Origin: an uncultured bacterium
GTDB lineage: Bacteria > Patescibacteriota > Minisyncoccia > Phycocordibacterales > UBA9973
Direction of reading: 5' to 3'
Assembly: GCA_903894955.1 (NCBI GenBank)
Contig: CAITSA010000009.1
Span: 1-32,992, forward strand
Length of the DNA stretch: 32,992 nucleotides
The notes beneath the pieces were generated by a model. The model did no database searches. It saw only the letters and a list, made by a program, of their open reading frames with translations, and had not been told where the DNA came from. Each line of letters starts with the position of its first letter. The first letter of the stretch is position 1. Below are positions 2,514 to 13,157 of the stretch, piece after piece. The position numbers were made by a program, and so were the translations under genes.

Positions 2514-2542
2514 AGAGTAGCATTTCTGTCTTATTTTGTCAA
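2514..2542 (-). promoter_or_regulatory. Promoter for the DEAD-box helicase
   Basis: On the minus strand TTGACA (2542-2537) is followed after 17 bp by TACTCT (2519-2514). The -35 is a perfect consensus; the -10 is weak. It starts about 50 nt before the helicase ATG, giving a leader long enough to include the start-codon hairpin. The -35 overlaps the stop region of the upstream gene. Confidence 0.5.
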
Positions 2543-3346
2543 TGATTGCAACGGTTTTATAATATCAAAAATGTATTTATTAATTTCACTAGTGTTACTC
2601 ATAATAAATTTAGTTTCAGTAAATTTCTTCTCTTGTTCCCCAGTAAAATCAATGATCTGAGCTCCAGCCTCAAGTGCTATAAGCTTCCCTGCAGCAAAAT
2701 CATGAATTTCTATAGCGTCACTTATAAATGATTCAATTTTCCCAGAAGCAAGCATACAACATTCAATAGCAGCTGACCAATTATTAATAATTCTTTTGCA
2801 ATTACCACTTCCAAAAGCATCCATTATTTTACCAAAATAATTTCGATTAATTTTATAACCACAAGTATACACAATTGTTAATTTTTTTTGTTCAGTAACA
2901 TCATTAACTTTAATTGATTTTCCATCTAAAAATGCACCTCCACCCTTAGTGGCAACATAAGTTTGATTTGTTATAGGTTGATAAACAACCCCAGCGATAA
3001 CTTCATCTTTAAAAGATAAAGCAATAGAGACAGAAAAGTGCGGGATACCTAATACAAAATTATTTGTTCCATCTAATGGGTCTATGATAAAAGTATAATC
3101 TGAACCATTAAATGTTTCTCCATCTTCTTCAGAAAAAATATTATATGAAGGAAACTTAGATTTTAAAATCTCTAAAATTACTTTTTCAGATTCTATGTCG
3201 GCTTTAGTTTGAAAGTCTGCAACTGTTGATTTTTCAGTTAAATCCATCACTTGACCAAAATATTGTCGTAGCTTTTCTCCTCCCGCATGAGCAGCTTTTA
3301 TTAAAATTTGTAGATCTTTGTCTTCTGTTTTTTTCATACTAAGCAA
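2531..3346 (-). CDS. Inositol monophosphatase family phosphatase
   Basis: Mg2+-dependent sugar- or nucleotide-phosphate phosphatase of the IMPase/SuhB/CysQ superfamily. The metal-binding motifs are clear: EED (NIFSEEDGE, near residue 78), DPLDGTNNF (near residue 90) and the C-terminal segment around WSAAIECCMLASGKIE, followed by DFAAGKLIALEAGA in place of the family's WDxAAG. The last motif starts HDFAAG, with Phe after the Asp position. Length 271 is normal. The start overlaps the stop of the upstream deaminase by 8 bp; Met4 would give a non-overlapping start. The overlap suggests co-transcription and translational coupling. Substrate cannot be told from sequence: inositol phosphate, fructose bisphosphate or 3'-phosphoadenosine phosphate are possibilities known for the family. 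Confidence 0.88.
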   Translation of the reverse strand: MLSMKKTEDKDLQILIKAAHAGGEKLRQYFGQVMDLTEKSTVADFQTKADIESEKVILEILKSKFPSYNIFSEEDGETFNGSDYTFIIDPLDGTNNFVLGIPHFSVSIALSFKDEVIAGVVYQPITNQTYVATKGGGAFLDGKSIKVNDVTEQKKLTIVYTCGYKINRNYFGKIMDAFGSGNCKRIINNWSAAIECCMLASGKIESFISDAIEIHDFAAGKLIALEAGAQIIDFTGEQEKKFTETKFIMSNTSEINKYIFDIIKPLQSLTK

Positions 3347-3866
3347 ATTGCTTACCTATAATATTGCTTGGACTACTTCTTTCAAAAAGAAGTTCGCTGT
3401 CTTCAACTAAGAATACTTTTTTAATACCAAGCTCCATCATCTTGTTCCAGCATGGTTCACAACACCACCAGTGTCCCCATAAATATAATTCAGGATTGTT
3501 TAAATTATTTATTCCTTGTTTTTGAAGATTTAAAACTACACGATATTCAGCATGGCTCGAATTTGTAGCACATCCTGGGCAAAGCCAATATTTATGACCT
3601 GAAGGGATGCCGAATATTTTCCTGATACAATATTTTTTATGAAGATTAATAAGTTTAGGATTAGAAATTGGAGCCTTGTTATGTTCTCCACTCACTATCT
3701 TTCCATCAGAAACAATAACCGCCCCAGTTGGAGTATTGTGGTCATTGGATTTTCTTGCTTGATCCTTTGCCGCCATCATAAAAGCATTACTTTCTGGAAC
3801 ATAGTCAATAATACCTTCTGTAGGTAAGTATGGACATACGATGGTTTTTTGATTTTTTGTTTCCAT
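3339..3866 (-). CDS. Deoxycytidylate/cytidine deaminase-like protein
   Basis: Zinc-dependent deaminase of the CMP/dCMP deaminase superfamily, 175 residues. The zinc motifs are HAE in SSHAEYRVV (His ligand and catalytic Glu) and a C-x-x-C in WWCCEPCWNKM. The usual PCxxC reads CCEPC here. The substrate could be dCMP, a modified dCMP or another nucleotide; the N-terminal segment TPTGAVIV is the usual beta-strand before the zinc site. There is an additional Cys pair, CPGC, before the HAE. It lies divergently from the thymidylate-synthase-family gene, 25 bp apart, and overlaps the phosphatase gene behind it. A second deaminase of a different subtype lies at 5597-5983. Confidence 0.8.
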   Translation of the reverse strand: METKNQKTIVCPYLPTEGIIDYVPESNAFMMAAKDQARKSNDHNTPTGAVIVSDGKIVSGEHNKAPISNPKLINLHKKYCIRKIFGIPSGHKYWLCPGCATNSSHAEYRVVLNLQKQGINNLNNPELYLWGHWWCCEPCWNKMMELGIKKVFLVEDSELLFERSSPSNIIGKQFA

Positions 3867-3891: not shown

Positions 3892-4725
3892 ATGACTACT
3901 TTTGACACAATCTATCAAAACATTATTAAAAAAATAATGACCGAAGGAGTTGAAGAATTAAATGAACGCACGGGCCATAAAACAAAGGCTCTCCCTGGAA
4001 TTACTTTCTCCATTGATATTGAAAAGGACGGTTTTCCTGTTTTAACTCTTCGCAAGCAACCATTGAAGTCTCCAATTGCTGAACAAGTTTGGTTTTTACA
4101 AGGTGAAAAAGACACAACATTTTTAAGAAAATTTACAAAAATGTGGGACCCTTTTATAGAGGAAGATGGTACCCTATCTTCAGCCTATGGATTCCGTTGG
4201 CGTAAATATTTCGGGCGAGACCAACTTGGTAAAGCAATTGAACTTTTAGAGAAAGAGCCAAGTTCTCGTCATGGAGTAATTATCACATGGGACCCAAAGG
4301 ATGATGGATATGGTGGAACTCCTAAAAAAAATATACCCTGTCCTTATACTTATACAATAAATATAATTGGTGGCCGGCTCAATATGCATAATATAATACG
4401 CTCAAACGACATGATGCTTGGTTGCCCATTTGATACTTTTGGTTTTGTCCTTTTACAGTGTATGATTGCAGAGAGACTTGATGTCCGTCCAGGAATCTAT
4501 ACTCACTCAATATCTAATGCCCATATTTATGACAATCATTACGAAGGAGCAAAAGAAATTATTTCTAGAAAAAATAATCATCAAAACATAGAACTGCATT
4601 TACCTAAAAATGCTTTGCTTCGAGCAGAACAAAAAGATGAAAATTTAGTCGATGAAATTTTAAAAGATTTACAAGCTCAATATAATCCTCTACCTTCAAT
4701 TGAAGGATTAGAAATTGCAATATAA
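3892..4725 (+). CDS. thyA: Thymidylate synthase family enzyme, Asp-type variant (possible dCMP specificity)
   Basis: Folate-dependent pyrimidine C5 methylase or hydroxymethylase of the ThyA fold, 277 residues. Conserved features: phosphate-binding Arg26 (ERTG), Glu64 (AEQVWFLQG), Trp85, catalytic Cys150, R170-S171-x-D173, His211/Tyr213 (AHIYDNH) and a C-terminal Ile. Two key positions differ from canonical ThyA. The His after the catalytic Cys is Pro (IPCPYTY), and the Asn of LPFN, which reads the dUMP base, is Asp181 (LGCPFD). Asp at this place occurs in dCMP hydroxymethylases such as phage T4 gp42, and Asn-to-Asp mutants of ThyA accept dCMP. The RSND stretch also resembles gp42. DHFR follows after 2 bp, which favours a reaction that yields dihydrofolate. 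A divergent but ordinary thymidylate synthase is the alternative. Confidence 0.85.
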   Translation: MTTFDTIYQNIIKKIMTEGVEELNERTGHKTKALPGITFSIDIEKDGFPVLTLRKQPLKSPIAEQVWFLQGEKDTTFLRKFTKMWDPFIEEDGTLSSAYGFRWRKYFGRDQLGKAIELLEKEPSSRHGVIITWDPKDDGYGGTPKKNIPCPYTYTINIIGGRLNMHNIIRSNDMMLGCPFDTFGFVLLQCMIAERLDVRPGIYTHSISNAHIYDNHYEGAKEIISRKNNHQNIELHLPKNALLRAEQKDENLVDEILKDLQAQYNPLPSIEGLEIAI

Positions 4726-4727
4726 TT

Positions 4728-5252
4728 ATGATTTCAATCATCGCGGCCATTGGTAAAAATAATGAACTCGGAAAGAAGAATGATCTTTTGTGGAATTTAC
4801 CTGCCGACATGAAACATTTCCGTGAAACAACAAAGGGCCATACTGTAATAATGGGCCAGAAAACATTTGAGTCTTTGGGTAGAGATGAAAATGGTAAACA
4901 AGTTGGACGACTCCTCCTAAATCGCAGAAACATTATCTTAACTCAAGATAAAACATTTGAAAAAGAAGGTGCAGAAATTGTATATTCTGTTCCAGAACTT
5001 ATGACTTTACTTGAAAAAACTTCAAATAAAAATAAAGAAAATTTTATTATCGGTGGAGGGCAAATATATAAATTATTTATAAACGAGGCAGACAAACTCT
5101 ATATTACACATGTCAATGCATCATTCCCTGACGCAGAAGTATTTTTCCCAGAAATTATTCCTGTTATTTGGAATGAAATATCTCACGAAGAACATCAAAA
5201 AGATAAAGAAAATTCTTTTGATTACACCTTTTCAGTTTACGAGAAATTTTAA
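4728..5252 (+). CDS. folA: Dihydrofolate reductase
   Basis: NADPH-dependent reduction of dihydrofolate to tetrahydrofolate, 174 residues. The N-terminal strand MISIIAAIGKNNELG, the active-site segment LLWNLPADMKHFRETT (Asp28 is the catalytic acid), GHTVIMGQKTFESLG and FIIGGGQIYKLF are all classical. It starts 2 bp after the TAA of the thyA-family gene and has no separate promoter or Shine-Dalgarno, so the two are an operon. Pairing with DHFR is the normal arrangement for enzymes that oxidise methylene-tetrahydrofolate to dihydrofolate. The gene ends 11 bp from the convergent MazG-like gene. Confidence 0.95.
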   Translation: MISIIAAIGKNNELGKKNDLLWNLPADMKHFRETTKGHTVIMGQKTFESLGRDENGKQVGRLLLNRRNIILTQDKTFEKEGAEIVYSVPELMTLLEKTSNKNKENFIIGGGQIYKLFINEADKLYITHVNASFPDAEVFFPEIIPVIWNEISHEEHQKDKENSFDYTFSVYEKF

Positions 5253-5263
5253 AAGTTTATATT

Positions 5264-5593
5264 TTAGGGGTCTTCGTCTGTTTTAACCCGAATAAAAACA
5301 TCTTTCCCTTCAGGAGATTTTTCTTTTATATATTTACGATTTTTATTTATTTCAATTTTTCTAACAAGTTCTTTTTCGAGATCAAAACCCATTTTCTCAC
5401 ACATTCCAAGAATAAAAATAACCACATCGGCAAATTCCTCGGCCACTCCATGCTGATTTTTATCATGTTTAGAAAAGGCTTCAGAAAGCTCTTCATAAGC
5501 TCGGCAAAATTCTCGCGCTACATCTGTCGTGTTAAATCCTTTCTCCACTTTATTTCTCATCACCTCTTTTTGTAATGCTTTTAAGTCAACCAT
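5264..5593 (-). CDS. MazG-like nucleotide pyrophosphohydrolase
   Basis: All-alpha NTP pyrophosphohydrolase of the MazG / dCTPase superfamily, 109 residues, which would convert (d)NTPs to NMPs plus pyrophosphate. The metal-binding pattern is visible: EELSEAF near residues 35-41, then EEFADVVIF near residues 52-60, matching EExxE followed by ExxD. A basic helix, KIEINKNRKY, follows. It lies 3 bp after the dCMP deaminase gene on the same strand, so they are co-transcribed. In this neighbourhood dCTP to dCMP is an attractive activity, but the substrate is not readable from sequence. A role as a house-cleaning enzyme for damaged nucleotides is equally possible. Confidence 0.8.
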   Translation of the reverse strand: MVDLKALQKEVMRNKVEKGFNTTDVAREFCRAYEELSEAFSKHDKNQHGVAEEFADVVIFILGMCEKMGFDLEKELVRKIEINKNRKYIKEKSPEGKDVFIRVKTDEDP

Positions 5594-5596
5594 AAA

Positions 5597-5983
5597 TTAT
5601 TTTACTTCAACTATAACTCTTTTAACACCCAAACTTTTAGCTATTTTTGAACAATCGGAACAAGGTTTCTTTTTACAATACATTGTTGCATCTTCCAATG
5701 AAATGCCAAATCTAATAGATTGAGAAATGGCGTTTTGTTCAGCATGTATAGTTCTGGAACAGTTTCCAGACTTTATATCATGTCCAACTTCATTACAATG
5801 TGGAAACCCTGAAAGAGAACCGGTGTAACCAGTAGCAACAATCCTATTGTCGCGGACTATTACACATCCACTTCCACCCCTATCACAAGTAGCTCTAGAT
5901 CCAACACAATCAGTAATATTTAAAAAGTATTCATCCCAAGAAGGCCTTTTGTTTTTAGTAAGTTTTTTTGTATTTTTTTTCAT
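5597..5983 (-). CDS. dCMP deaminase (ComEB-like)
   Basis: Zinc-dependent deoxycytidylate deaminase, 128 residues, converting dCMP to dUMP. Clear motifs: the N-terminal WDEYFLNI typical of dCMP deaminases, GCVIVRDNRIVATGYTGS, the insertion CNEVGHD, the zinc/catalytic HAEQNAI and KKPCSDC with the two Cys ligands. The C-terminus is GVKRVIVEVK. It is shorter than ComEB, which has an extra C-terminal region. It is co-directional with the MazG-like gene 3 bp downstream. This is the more canonical of the two deaminases in the window; the other (3339-3866) is more divergent and could act on a related substrate. Confidence 0.9.
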   Translation of the reverse strand: MKKNTKKLTKNKRPSWDEYFLNITDCVGSRATCDRGGSGCVIVRDNRIVATGYTGSLSGFPHCNEVGHDIKSGNCSRTIHAEQNAISQSIRFGISLEDATMYCKKKPCSDCSKIAKSLGVKRVIVEVK

Positions 5984-6001: not shown

Positions 6002-6029
6002 ATGACCCTGAGTTTTTCGAATGGGTCAT
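6002..6029. repeat. Inverted repeat at the 3' end of the CofE-like gene
   Basis: ATGACCC (6002-6008) and GGGTCAT (6023-6029) are perfect 7-bp complements around a 14-nt loop. The repeat overlaps the stop codon of the CofE-like gene at 6026 and lies 19 bp upstream of the dCMP deaminase start. There is no T-run, so it may be an RNA processing or regulatory hairpin rather than a terminator. Confidence 0.35.
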
Positions 6030-6757
6030 TTCTTTAATATACTCCCAAAAAGTGGTAAATACAAATCATCTTTGATCTTTATCAAAAGTTCTTTTTTATT
6101 AACTTTCTTTATAAACTCAACTGGTGCATTTGTTATTAAAGCAAATGGCTGTTGCTCTTTTCCTTCTCCCATACAAAACACCGCAGTAGTAGCCAAACTG
6201 TCTGCAACATCTGTCTGAGATATTTTCAAAACTTTACCAAAAATATCTTTTTTACCTATATAACTTTTAACACCCTTGAACCCAGCATAACCAAGCGCCA
6301 CCCCCACCGCACCAGCACGTAACGGTAAAAGTCGCGAATCAGTTATTAAAATACCAAAATTCTTTAACCGAAATTTTTTCATCAATTTTCTACGTAAAAT
6401 TTCCGCGCTCTTAAAACTATCCTTAGGTAAAAGAATAAGTTTACTTTTCGCATTTGATTCATCAATGCCAGCATTTGCCAAAACCATTCCGTCTTTAATA
6501 GTTAACCAAGCATCTTTTGTTTTTAGAGAAAATTCGCTTTCTTGTTTTATTAATTCTATTTTTTGCTTTTCATTTTTATACTCTTTTGTTCTACCTTCAG
6601 AAAGAGCTACTATTTTAGAAGTTACAACTAAAACCGAGTTCTCGGGAATTTTTTTGACATACTCTAAAATAAATGCAAATAAATCTTCGTTCTCCTCAAA
6701 TATTTTAGTTTTGATTGGTATAACTTGCATTTGATTTAACGAAATCATGCCGCGCAC
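6026..6757 (-). CDS. CofE-like gamma-glutamyl ligase family protein
   Basis: Related to coenzyme F420-0:L-glutamate ligase (CofE/FbiB N-terminal fold), which adds gamma-linked glutamates using GTP. Family landmarks: the opening VIPIKTKIFEENEDL, VVTSKIVALSEGR, the central TDSRLLPLRAGAVGVALG (the metal/GTP site region) and QTDVADSLATTAVFCMGEG. Length 243 is normal. Start choice is open: Met10 (6730) opens at the conserved VIPI strand, and no start has a Shine-Dalgarno. It sits 4 bp after the transporter gene. No F420 genes are visible in this window, so the acceptor may be something else; whether the organism makes F420 cannot be judged here. It is next to folate-dependent genes, which is suggestive only. 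Confidence 0.8.
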   Translation of the reverse strand: MRGMISLNQMQVIPIKTKIFEENEDLFAFILEYVKKIPENSVLVVTSKIVALSEGRTKEYKNEKQKIELIKQESEFSLKTKDAWLTIKDGMVLANAGIDESNAKSKLILLPKDSFKSAEILRRKLMKKFRLKNFGILITDSRLLPLRAGAVGVALGYAGFKGVKSYIGKKDIFGKVLKISQTDVADSLATTAVFCMGEGKEQQPFALITNAPVEFIKKVNKKELLIKIKDDLYLPLFGSILKK

Positions 6758-8837: not shown

Positions 8838-11800
8838 TTACTCCATCTTCTTTCTTGTTTGTGGTCCCACCACTCCATCAACCATTAACCCATGAGCCTT
8901 CTGCCATTTTTTAACGGCTTTAGCTGTCTTTAGACCGAAATTACCATCAATAGTTAAGTGGGGTTTTAAATGTTTGTTGAGAAATTTTTGTAAGGCTTTG
9001 ACATCGTTTCCTACACTGCCTAGCTTTAGAACGGAAGAAGTGCCAGTAGTGGTAGTAGATACTTCAGGGTTAGTAGTTGGAGGAGTTTGAGGAGAAGGAG
9101 GTAAGGTTGAATTTGACGCTGGAGATGAAGTAACGACAGTAGGAGCGGTGATTGTTGGAGCAGGAGTGGTAATTGTTTTAGTAATGACTGGAAGATTGGT
9201 AAAGACTGAAGCACTGGTAACTGTTTGACAGGTAACATCGAGGTTTAGGGGGGCAGAATCTGTATAGTTGTTAACATTATCTAGGGCTCGAAGACTCCAG
9301 GTGTGATAGCCACAGGTTGGATTAGAGAGAGTATAGGGAGAAGTAATGGAAGAGGCTAAAAGAGAACTATCCCAATAGAAGTTGTAGGAAGCTGGTCCCG
9401 AGAGAGCGTCGGTGGCTGACCAAGTGAAGACAGGAGGAGGATTTCTAGTGCGAGCACTATTGTTGAGGGGTAGAAGGTTGGAGAGAAGTGGGCCGGTGGC
9501 ATCAATCCCACTGATGGCATTTGATAATGCGTAAAAATTAACATTTCCGGTATAATCCTGCGCTCTATAGCAAACCGTTTTGCCTACATCTGCTTCCGTA
9601 TGAAAATTTAATGAAGCGTAGCTTGTAAAAGTTAGACTGGCGTCGCAGGTGTTAACTCCTGTGTTATTTATGGCATAAGATAGAGTTGTTCCTGCTGTAG
9701 TTGAGGCGATAACGTTTTTACTTTGCGCCCAAGTTGCATTTGGATTATTAACAGTTATCGGATTGTAGGCAGAGGCTAAATCTGTTGAGTTAAGGTCTTG
9801 TCCAGTAGATTGTTGCCAATCTGCCAACGTGTTGTAAACATTCACGTTACCAATTACTGTACTAGAATTAGGGTGATAGTAGGTGTTGTTATTAAATGTA
9901 CCAAAGAGAGGGGGGGTATCCGGCCCTAGATTGGTTCCAGTAGATTGTCCAGTATAATACCTTGCGACAGCGTCTGTCCCAAGCGTTTCAAAAATATTGT
10001 TCGTAGCAATATTATTACGAACAAGACCAGGCGCCGCTGTAGAAGAATTTCTATTTATAGCATAGGCGTATTTTCTAGAACTATAAACATTATTGCCTGT
10101 AACTGTGGTGTCATGAGAGGAATGAAGAAAAATACCTACATCCGTGTTGGAAACAATGTTATTGAGAATACTTATGCCATAAGAAAGATCATCTAGGTAA
10201 ATCCCAAGAGACATTGTTGTCGTGTGATTGGTTCCACTGGCATTACCAATCGAATTGGTAACTGTGTTGCCGCTAATTGTTCCAAACATAGGATTACCGC
10301 TAGGCTCGGTATAAATTCCGCCACAATCATCAAGCACTAGGCATGACCTGTCTATAATGTTATTTTCAACTAAAGTCTGACTACCATTAATCTGACCACC
10401 ACGAAAATCTATACCAATATATCCGCTATTGGTAACAGTATTGTTGTTGGCCGTCATCGCGGCGCCTGTTATATAAATTGCACCATCTGACACTTTTGGC
10501 ATCCCTACATTCCCCGCATTGTTAATAGTATTATTTGAGACAACCTCGTTGCTTGTATTTGTGGTGGCCTGTATTCCATCTGACAAGGTATTCTGTATGG
10601 AATTATTGGTTATTGAAGAATTTGTATTAGTAGTTAATAATATTCCATTCTGTCCTCCGGATGCAGTAATACCGTTTATGGTTATATTACTAGCGTTAGA
10701 GATATAAACATCCTGTTGATTTGCGTTATCAATTTCTAAATTCTGAATTGTGATGTAATTTTTTCCAGTATCATTGATGCCATACGAACGATTTGAGATT
10801 TCTACAGAATGACTGCTTGGATTATCGCCATTGGGAGCCCAAAGATAAATCTGGTGCGCGGTTGAATCGTAGTACCATTCGCCAGGAGAATCAAGCATCC
10901 AGAGCATATTCTGAAGATAAAAACCATAACCAGCTATCATGCTTGATTGCGTGCCAGGATATATGCTGTCATGCAAAGTTATGGTATAAGTTGCCGGATT
11001 GTAGTCTGTCGCCACTGTCGTGCCTATATACCAATCGTTTGCTCTAACCATAACCGTCGCTCCAATAATTTGATCTGACGTTAACGTAAGATTGGAATCA
11101 ATTATAGTGTTGTAACTGGTATAATAAGAATTCGCAGTCGCTGTCAGCCAGCCGCTGTTTGGATAATGGGCAATATCATAAAAAGTTCCATCAACATAAA
11201 GCTGGTTCGGCACGTTCGCTGGGCTAGTACTGGCAACATAAATATTACCACTGTAGTTAGTCCATCCGCTTACTGTATCTGCTCCGGAAATAATTGGCTT
11301 GTTCCCTGTTCCATATGCGCCAAAAGTGATGGGGGCATTTGCTAATCCTGACGACAGTACCGTTAACTGTTCCCGCCAGGTGCAACCTCTATGGAAAAGA
11401 ATTGAATCTGCGGGATTGAAAGCAGATGAATTTACTTTAGCAACTGTAAGCCATGGAGTTGAGGGATCTGTGCCATTATTAGAATCGCTGCCTGTTACTA
11501 CGCAATTATCAACATAGTAAACGGCACCGGTAAGTGTAATGGTTATTGTTTGTGATGCGCTTGGCGAAATATTACCTTCATAATCCCTGACCCAAGCGTA
11601 GGCATTTACTACGCCCGCTTCTCCAAAAGTAAAGGTGGCCGGCGCTGTATCGGACCAATTGGGATTACCAAGCGATGGTATTGAGGATGACTCGGTGATT
11701 AGATAACCAGTAGCACCAACATCATCAGTCGCAGTAAGCGTTGCCGGTACCGTAATCGCATTTGTATTAGCAGGCATAGAAAAGGTGGTAACAGACGGGG

Positions 11801-13157
11801 CGACAAAATCAGTCCGTGTGTGAGTAGACTCGTCCGCGCCTATGTCCCAACCACTTCCAAATGGTCTAGCATCTGCATCAATGTCAGTGTTAAAGGCGAG
11901 GTTACTATCTCCGGACAAATTTGCGCCCGCGTTAATGGCGACTGCGCCTGGGGCTAAATGAAAATCTTCATTCGTGGCATCAATAAATTGAATCTTGGTT
12001 GAGTTGAGTGAATTGGAACCAGGAGCGTCATTAAAGTCAGAAATATTATTAGAAGATGAGTCTGCATAATTGCGAACAAATCCACTGGAAACGTCATCTT
12101 GAGAAATATTGTTTATGGCTGTAACTGTGCTTGGTGCCCACGTAGCGCCTATCCCTTGATAATTATTGTAGAGCGTATTGTTGTAGACATAGGCGATATC
12201 TCCGGTAACCTGCATGGCCGCGCCGCTAGCACAGTTGAAACCATAAATAATATTATTCCAAATTCTATAGACATTCGCGCTGGCTGTTGCCCTATAATTT
12301 TCAATTCCCATTTGCCCAGTACCACCACCATTACCGCTTTTAATAATATTGTTGGAAATTTGGATGTCTGTTGTATCACCAATTAACTTACCAGACACAT
12401 TTATACCCCAAGCATAGGTTGCGGTCGAGGTAATTTTGATTTGTAAGCCATCAAAACGAATGTAGTTCGTGGTACCGGAAAAGCCATTTGCGTTTGTTAA
12501 CTCAATTCTGTACGCATTGGTAGTCCATTTTCCAGTATGACGCTGTGAGGCATTTGCTTCAGTGGAAGTGCTAACCGGGGTATATATTCTTATGTAATTT
12601 AATGAACCAGTAGTATAGCTACTGACAGCTAAACCAGAGGTAGTGTCCGCACCAGTATCGTAATAACAAGGGATATTTAAAATCACATTGGCGGTCACGA
12701 GATTAGCAGTAGTGATGTGACTAGAATCTTTTGCTCCTGTTAAAGCCGCCGACATTGATGCATAGGCATGAGTAATAGATGTTACTGCTGTTGAAGCCAA
12801 ATCAACTGGAATTGCTCCAAGTTTAGTTACAACATTCCAATGCTTTGTATCTATTTTTGAAGCTAAATAATATATGTTTCCACCTGCATTCAATCGATCA
12901 CCCACGCCTAAATTATTTGCGATCTGAGCCACAGTGAAAGTGGCCACGCCAGAAGTTATGCTGATATTGCCACCACTAGAATGATCAGTGGTATTTTGGC
13001 CTACGGAGTAATAAACATTGACTGCCACAGCACTGGCATGACTGGCTATACTAAAAAACAAACCAACACACAACAGAAGTAGAACGGTTTTTGCCCTTCT
13101 TTTTTTTTCGGATTGTGTATGTTTAAATTTTAACATATTAACACTTAATGACATCAA
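8838..13157 (-). CDS. Large exported beta-helix protein with C-terminal peptidoglycan-binding domain
   Basis: A 1439-residue surface or secreted protein. A basic N-terminus (KKRRAK) and hydrophobic stretch (residues 24-39) ending SHASA give a signal peptide. Residues about 45-440 form one right-handed beta-helix-like region rich in NN-x-I repeats, ending in the GSGWDIGADE type motif. A Ser/Thr-rich Ig-like module follows (about 446-545). A second beta-helix starts at VYYVDN (about 547-1150), with many NNxI turns. Another Ig-like module (about 1219-1310), a Pro/Thr/Ser-rich linker and a peptidoglycan-binding domain (about 1372-1439, LGSVGNDVKALQKFLN, GxFGxxTxxAVKxWQ type) complete it. It probably sits on the cell wall. 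No catalytic residues were identified, so polysaccharide binding, lyase activity or adhesion remain open. By eye its base composition is richer in GC than its neighbours, a possible sign of transfer. Confidence 0.85.
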   Translation of the reverse strand: MMSLSVNMLKFKHTQSEKKRRAKTVLLLLCVGLFFSIASHASAVAVNVYYSVGQNTTDHSSGGNISITSGVATFTVAQIANNLGVGDRLNAGGNIYYLASKIDTKHWNVVTKLGAIPVDLASTAVTSITHAYASMSAALTGAKDSSHITTANLVTANVILNIPCYYDTGADTTSGLAVSSYTTGSLNYIRIYTPVSTSTEANASQRHTGKWTTNAYRIELTNANGFSGTTNYIRFDGLQIKITSTATYAWGINVSGKLIGDTTDIQISNNIIKSGNGGGTGQMGIENYRATASANVYRIWNNIIYGFNCASGAAMQVTGDIAYVYNNTLYNNYQGIGATWAPSTVTAINNISQDDVSSGFVRNYADSSSNNISDFNDAPGSNSLNSTKIQFIDATNEDFHLAPGAVAINAGANLSGDSNLAFNTDIDADARPFGSGWDIGADESTHTRTDFVAPSVTTFSMPANTNAITVPATLTATDDVGATGYLITESSSIPSLGNPNWSDTAPATFTFGEAGVVNAYAWVRDYEGNISPSASQTITITLTGAVYYVDNCVVTGSDSNNGTDPSTPWLTVAKVNSSAFNPADSILFHRGCTWREQLTVLSSGLANAPITFGAYGTGNKPIISGADTVSGWTNYSGNIYVASTSPANVPNQLYVDGTFYDIAHYPNSGWLTATANSYYTSYNTIIDSNLTLTSDQIIGATVMVRANDWYIGTTVATDYNPATYTITLHDSIYPGTQSSMIAGYGFYLQNMLWMLDSPGEWYYDSTAHQIYLWAPNGDNPSSHSVEISNRSYGINDTGKNYITIQNLEIDNANQQDVYISNASNITINGITASGGQNGILLTTNTNSSITNNSIQNTLSDGIQATTNTSNEVVSNNTINNAGNVGMPKVSDGAIYITGAAMTANNNTVTNSGYIGIDFRGGQINGSQTLVENNIIDRSCLVLDDCGGIYTEPSGNPMFGTISGNTVTNSIGNASGTNHTTTMSLGIYLDDLSYGISILNNIVSNTDVGIFLHSSHDTTVTGNNVYSSRKYAYAINRNSSTAAPGLVRNNIATNNIFETLGTDAVARYYTGQSTGTNLGPDTPPLFGTFNNNTYYHPNSSTVIGNVNVYNTLADWQQSTGQDLNSTDLASAYNPITVNNPNATWAQSKNVIASTTAGTTLSYAINNTGVNTCDASLTFTSYASLNFHTEADVGKTVCYRAQDYTGNVNFYALSNAISGIDATGPLLSNLLPLNNSARTRNPPPVFTWSATDALSGPASYNFYWDSSLLASSITSPYTLSNPTCGYHTWSLRALDNVNNYTDSAPLNLDVTCQTVTSASVFTNLPVITKTITTPAPTITAPTVVTSSPASNSTLPPSPQTPPTTNPEVSTTTTGTSSVLKLGSVGNDVKALQKFLNKHLKPHLTIDGNFGLKTAKAVKKWQKAHGLMVDGVVGPQTRKKME

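Follow-up and report, generated by a model that had tools for sequence, protein, structure and literature searches.

How does a cell make thymidylate when the only member of the thymidylate synthase family that it seems to encode carries aspartate at the position that selects the base? This question is raised by a gene in a 32,992-nucleotide stretch of DNA (the whole stretch analysed, hereafter the window) from a bacterium whose nearest named relatives are Candidatus Nomurabacteria (Patescibacteria). ThyA and ThyX both act on dUMP. Reviews recognize these two families of de novo thymidylate synthases (e.g., PMC3498832). As judged from genome comparison, the enzyme encoded here, which we call TS-Asp, is very probably a dCMP C5-methylase standing in for thymidylate synthase, with a partner enzyme, deam2, carrying out deamination afterwards. 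The features of the window that bear on this reading are the following:

2531–3346, reverse strand: phosphatase of the inositol-monophosphatase family, overlapping the end of deam2 (homology)
3339–3866, reverse strand: deam2, a zinc deaminase of the CDA fold, putative 5-methyl-dCMP deaminase (PF00383, motifs, tree, co-occurrence)
3892–4725, forward strand: TS-Asp, predicted dCMP C5-methylase (PF00303, alignment, tree, relatives)
4330–4344, forward strand: active-site motif Asn147-Ile-Pro-Cys150-Pro151 of TS-Asp (alignment, PMC6400193)
4432–4434, forward strand: codon GAT of Asp181, the base-selecting residue (Asn177 of E. coli ThyA; alignment)
4728–5252, forward strand: dihydrofolate reductase (DHFR), which would recycle the dihydrofolate (DHF) from TS-Asp (PF00186)
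5264–5593, reverse strand: MazG-like NTP pyrophosphatase, a candidate dCTPase supplying dCMP (homology, locus comparison)
5597–5983, reverse strand: short ComEB-like dCMP deaminase of 128 amino acids, kept in some TS-Asp genomes (homology)

The reading frame of TS-Asp is unbroken (277 amino acids) and matches PF00303 (Pfam) with 188 bits. Since it scores 125.8 against a cut-off of 108.35 for TIGR03284 (NCBIfam), automatic annotation would name it thymidylate synthase; it falls under all five PRK01827 cut-offs. Like canonical ThyA, it retains the fold, a neighbouring DHFR gene and the catalytic residues, with Cys150, Glu64, Arg170, Ser171, Asp173, His211 and Tyr213 aligning with the catalytic Cys, Glu58, Arg166, Ser167, Asp169, His207 and Tyr209 of the E. 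coli enzyme. Unlike ThyA, it has Asp181 for Asn177, Pro151 for His147, Phe88 for Trp83, His127 for Arg127, Ile169 for Gln165 and Asn172 for Cys168, and Asn147 replaces Leu143 three residues before the catalytic cysteine (Cys-3). The initial annotation had proposed the Asn-to-Asp exchange at 4432–4434, the proline in place of the histidine that follows the catalytic cysteine, and the list of kept residues from Cys150 to Tyr213, and had pointed to an Asp at the same place in T4 dCMP hydroxymethylase; alignment with E. coli ThyA and comparison with T4 gp42 agree on each count. A structure model of TS-Asp (pLDDT 60.7) was too poor for use.

Is Asp181 peculiar to this one genome? Asp177 (E. coli numbering) is present in 13/13 members of a local alignment, in all 80 related genome loci that we retrieved and also in the nearest homologues from phages; Pro147 occurs in all but one of the 80 loci. 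Asp181 is thus neither a chance change nor a sequencing error and, in the sequences compared, is a clade-wide trait rather than an odd point mutation. The 80 loci come nearly all from Patescibacteria (Nomura-, Taylor-, Kaiser-, Doudna-, Uhr- and Saccharibacteria, among others). In trees built with a quick method (SH-aLRT support only for this family), they form one group that also takes in a small number of viral-classed contigs and lies outside a ThyA group (support 100) that includes the ThyA of the window's own genus. The outcome that the initial annotation had named as contrary to its reading, a placement within ordinary ThyA with the Asp misaligned, is therefore not what we found: the clade is separate and the column firmly aligned. 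The altered active site (Asp/Pro/Asn/Phe) and the separate clade are, by alignment and tree, properties of the whole group. As our contig pattern scan was biased toward the TS-Asp clade, we took its frequency from an even sample of the phylum, in which it occurs in 9 of 286 genomes (about 3%), with a clear gap between TS-Asp scores (at least 359 bits) and the next match (157 bits). One locus, in a Saprospiraceae bin (L109), is probably bin contamination, because its TS-Asp is almost identical to that of a Patescibacterium (L111). Four viral-classed contigs (L136, L137, L138 and L139) encode a TS-Asp that closely resembles the Patescibacteria type; a MazG-like gene is present on three of them and a deam2-like gene on L138. 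It is possible that these are phages of Patescibacteria that shift the TS-Asp module.

If TS-Asp occurs throughout this clade, what has become of ThyA and ThyX? The 36 genomes of the window's genus contain ThyA with asparagine (21 genomes; Asn confirmed at position 177 in 21/21), TS-Asp (12) or ThyX (3), never two together, and TS-Asp occupies the thyA locus of its relatives, in the order helicase, TS, DHFR, MazG-like and ComEB. The check for thyX or a second thyA that the initial annotation had suggested gave the same answer at both scales, with neither found beside TS-Asp in the genus or, in the phylum sample, in the nine TS-Asp genomes, which have no second match to the TS family and no ThyX. 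Mutual exclusion with ThyA and ThyX is thus a feature of the genomes surveyed. Thymidine kinase was absent from 20 of 21 TS-Asp genomes, the sole exception being G143, so these cells seem to be without another source of dTMP. Since the window's genome (0.63 Mb) is 76.6% complete, these absences rest on its relatives, most of which are 94–100% complete. Thymidylate kinase was found in 20 of the 21, one match being weak, and lies beside TS-Asp or deam2 in five (G058, G143, G264, G325 and G334). A thymidylate kinase gene within the cluster or adjoining it agrees with dTMP being the product and with deamination of the monophosphate.

Which genes accompany TS-Asp? deam2 is transcribed divergently from it, the two start codons lying 25 bp apart, and adjoins it in 11/11 genus genomes with a readable flank; in the twelfth (G021), the TS-Asp gene starts where its contig ends, and fragments of deam2 are on other contigs. 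At 75 of the 80 Patescibacteria loci deam2 is beside or near TS-Asp. Four of the other five have a contig end no more than 0.4 kb from TS-Asp, with deam2 pieces elsewhere in L075 and L131, and the fifth (L126) is a real gap in the MAG. Across the 286-genome sample, strong deam2 matches (at least 125 bits) occur in exactly the nine TS-Asp genomes, the best match outside them reaching 57.6 bits; in G096 and G270 deam2 is present though far from TS-Asp. The hypergeometric chance of this 9/9 co-occurrence is about 10^-16.5 when shared ancestry is ignored. Most sampled TS-Asp genomes have no short deaminase of this type besides deam2, and the other deaminase hits, of about 330–400 amino acids, look like RibD by length. 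Two TS-Asp MAGs (G345 and G347) yielded no deaminase, a point against the proposed route that may, however, reflect incompleteness. A search for a hidden deam2 among the deaminase matches of the ThyA and ThyX genomes of the genus gave only weak cross-scores.

deam2 shares the CDA fold and the HxE and CxxC zinc motifs with ComEB/DCTD, but it carries a distinctive GHWW[CA]CxxC motif, scores 26.5 bits against the ComEB family profile, whose cut-off is 219, and forms a branch apart from both ComEB and the dCMP deaminases of phages (support 100 in a quick tree). HxE and CxxC are present in 85 of 88 deam2 frames, the other three being partial or split. We found no characterized close homologue, and Foldseek, given a deam2 model with pLDDT 73.8, gave much the same similarity to dCMP, guanine and tRNA-adenosine deaminases. 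Related dCMP deaminases accept 5-methyl-dCMP (PMC12088426). Given its obligate pairing with TS-Asp, which in these genomes is a plain matter of gene content, deam2 is best read as carrying out the step after methylation. Variants of deam2 include frames of about 360 amino acids with an extra region (G325, at L200, and G143, at L201) and a tandem pair of deam2-like genes (G143 and G090).

A second deaminase gene in the window encodes a short ComEB, which lacks the internal loop and C-terminal region of its homologues in ThyA-type genomes and forms its own branch. Within the genus, four genomes with TS-Asp retain it (the window's, L032, L036 and L037), which counts against our reading; it may be decaying there or may have taken on a new role. 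As loss of ComEB is not universal among TS-Asp genomes, we regard it as supporting evidence only. A promoter scan stayed at chance level.

Does TS-Asp methylate its substrate, and is that substrate dCMP? Dihydrofolate is a product of ThyA-type methylation, but not of hydroxymethylation or of ThyX. All 33 genomes of the genus that encode ThyA or TS-Asp also encode DHFR, and none of the three with ThyX does, a distribution which suggests that TS-Asp makes DHF and hence methylates. Published work agrees that hydroxymethylation produces no dihydrofolate and identifies Asp or Glu at Cys-3 as the signature of dCMP hydroxymethylases, a T4 D145N mutant forming no product (PMC6400193). In every TS-Asp that we read, Cys-3 is Asn, as it is in phage relatives of Xp12, whereas it is Asp in T4 gp42 and in the Asn177 phage relatives that we retrieved. 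A further mark of T4-type hydroxymethylases is Ser or Thr two residues ahead of the conserved Tyr (T4 Ser94-x-Tyr96); this position is Ser in the window's TS-Asp but is not conserved among its relatives. DHFR tracking is thus observed across the genus, and TS-Asp probably methylates and yields dihydrofolate. As for the base, Asp at position 177 goes with cytosine substrates in characterized family members and mutants (PMC5175136; PMC6400193; PMC8670742), positions 177 and 147 are those that phage metagenomes link most strongly to cytosine modification (PMC8670742), and an Asn-to-Asp change switches ThyA to dCMP methylation (PMC8670742). The last finding upholds the statement of the initial annotation that such mutants accept dCMP, and the genomic evidence favors dCMP as the likely substrate of TS-Asp, as it had suggested. 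Of the two chemistries that it had left open, methylation gains from DHFR tracking and kinship with Xp12-type enzymes, and hydroxymethylation loses by the missing signature. Of the two fates that it had named, a route to dTMP is favored by the exclusion of ThyA and ThyX, the obligate deaminase and the lack of thymidine kinase, and DNA modification is disfavored.

The pathway would then begin with the conversion of dCTP to dCMP, by the MazG-like enzyme in the window's genus and by a relative of dCTP deaminase lacking Glu138 in other lineages. TS-Asp would convert dCMP and CH2-THF to 5-methyl-dCMP and DHF, the adjacent DHFR would recycle the DHF, deam2 would deaminate 5-methyl-dCMP to dTMP, and thymidylate kinase would phosphorylate the dTMP. 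Methylation would precede deamination, and dUMP would be bypassed. We infer the substrates and products given here for each enzyme, and also that the amino group is removed from the monophosphate and not from the triphosphate.

Where might the dCMP come from? The MazG-like gene is also found at ThyA-type loci of the window's genus. Outside this genus, TS-Asp or deam2 has a dCTP-deaminase-family protein as its neighbour; Pfam and NCBIfam name it dCTP deaminase, and some copies score above TIGR02274. Its catalytic Glu138 has become Pro in all 64 strong readable frames at TS-Asp loci (a few loci being counted twice), whereas canonical dCTP deaminases of other Patescibacteria retain Glu138. Examples are L042:7431–8084, L126:7329–8024 and L199:5113–5784, with about 60 more. 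Loss of this Glu, which is evident in the translated frames, makes deamination unlikely, and the protein is probably not a true dCTP deaminase. We would guess that it hydrolyzes dCTP to dCMP. Two points count against our reading here: the supplier of dCMP is not the same in all lineages, and its dCTPase activity is a guess.

It is also possible, though unlikely, that the order of steps is the ordinary one, with deam2 a replacement dCMP deaminase giving dUMP and TS-Asp methylating dUMP despite its Asp. This would account equally well for the pairing of the two genes and for the absence of ThyA and ThyX from genomes with TS-Asp, and deam2 does lie within the dCMP-deaminase superfamily. In addition, dUTPase is retained, so that dUMP still arises, which counts against a bypass. 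However, dUTPase is kept in genomes of both the ThyA and the TS-Asp type, with a separate dUTPase in some TS-Asp clusters, and therefore does not discriminate. The ordinary order is also at odds with the tie between Asp177 and cytosine substrates described above, the co-conservation of Asp, Pro and Asn with phage relatives of Xp12, and the loss of the deaminating Glu from the dCTP-deaminase relative at TS-Asp loci. It would moreover leave as an unexplained coincidence that ComEB was exchanged for an unrelated deaminase alongside an Asn-to-Asp enzyme.

Less probable still is that 5-methyl-dCMP made by TS-Asp is phosphorylated and serves DNA modification, yielding genomic 5-methylcytosine as in phage Xp12. 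Characterized dCMP methylases do serve phage DNA modification (PMC8670742; PMC9206674), and viral-classed contigs are among the nearest relatives of TS-Asp. But with no ThyA or ThyX, and no thymidine kinase in 20 of 21 genomes, this would leave the cell no source of dTMP; it also sits poorly with a near-invariant deaminase partner and with a chromosomal gene at the thyA locus of relatives. 5-methylcytosine in DNA could nevertheless be a by-product of the TS-Asp route. That TS-Asp is a dCMP hydroxymethylase giving 5-hydroxymethyl-dCMP, as Asp177, common to it and T4 gp42, might suggest, is highly improbable given the missing Asp or Glu at Cys-3 (compare T4 D145N, which gave no product), the unconserved T4 Ser94 position, the bulky Phe in place of T4 Val85 and the DHFR that tracks it.

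The closest precedent for methylation of dCMP ahead of deamination is viral. Work from 1982, as cited in PMC12088426 (Kuo 1982, "A new thymidylate biosynthesis"; Wang and Ehrlich 1982), describes cells infected with Xp12 in which dCMP is methylated and a 5-methyl nucleotide is then deaminated to give thymidine nucleotides. Xp12 DNA contains 5-methylcytosine in place of all cytosine, the infected host makes a deoxycytidylate methyltransferase, and phage AXL1 is closely related to Xp12 (PMC9206674; PMC8543423). With AXL1, PaMx74 and Mallos as proxies for Xp12 itself, we find that their TS shares KN[VI]PCP, Phe83 and Asp177 with TS-Asp, at an identity of about 32–36%, and that its gene adjoins those for a dCMP deaminase, for DHFR and for a pyrophosphohydrolase. 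In both systems dCMP would be methylated before deamination, making thymidine nucleotides independent of dUMP. They differ in that the TS-Asp route is chromosomal and apparently the sole cellular route to dTMP, in that deam2 belongs to another family than the 5-methyl-dCTP deaminase of Xp12 and probably acts on the monophosphate, and in that the TS-Asp genomes give no evidence of cytosine replacement in their DNA. Other family members are more distant. T4 gp42 shares the superfamily and the Asp at the base-reading position, but its Cys-3 residue is Asp where that of TS-Asp is Asn, its Val85 corresponds to Phe, and it lacks a ThyA-like tail, whereas TS-Asp ends in a hydrophobic C terminus. The CMP hydroxymethylases MilA and BcmA likewise have Asp where the base is read (Asp186 in MilA), but MilA, which uses ribonucleotides, has Ala176 where TS-Asp retains Ser171; a second MilA marker, Lys133, has an insecure placement in the TS-Asp alignment.

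So far, thymidine synthesis by methylation first has been known only from a phage, and we found no report of a cellular route in the literature searched, which covered few subscription journals. The new element here is a chromosomal and apparently obligatory cellular version, with a deaminase of another family and an altered dCTP-deaminase relative. If our reading is correct, a route that bypasses dUMP would join those of ThyA and ThyX, probably as a third cellular route of de novo dTMP synthesis and the only source of thymine in several lineages of Patescibacteria. The order of deamination and methylation would be reversible, and a free 5-methyl-cytosine nucleotide would exist inside cells. 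In addition, deam2 would represent a new family of 5-methyl-dCMP deaminases, a dCTP-deaminase relative would have turned into a dCTPase in many lineages, and the automatic names "thymidylate synthase" and "dCTP deaminase" would be wrong in these genomes.

Finally, we note several genes near TS-Asp or at related loci. The inositol-monophosphatase-family gene adjoins deam2 in no more than a few relatives. An F420 ligase-like protein (6026–6757, reverse strand), whose best match is TIGR04132 (putative folate gamma-glutamate ligase), below its cut-off, has its gene close to the TS-Asp cluster in several relatives. Frames of about 480–550 amino acids with a divergent TS-like domain occur in G039 (L048:5222–6817), G067, G123, G147, G060, G182, G228 and G330; the L048 frame has PCIT at the cysteine and, next to genes for MazG-like and ComEB proteins, takes the place that ThyA has in others. 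Farther along the window, 8838–13157 (reverse strand) encodes a repetitive, secreted-looking protein of 1439 amino acids that, by eye, ends in a peptidoglycan-binding-like region.
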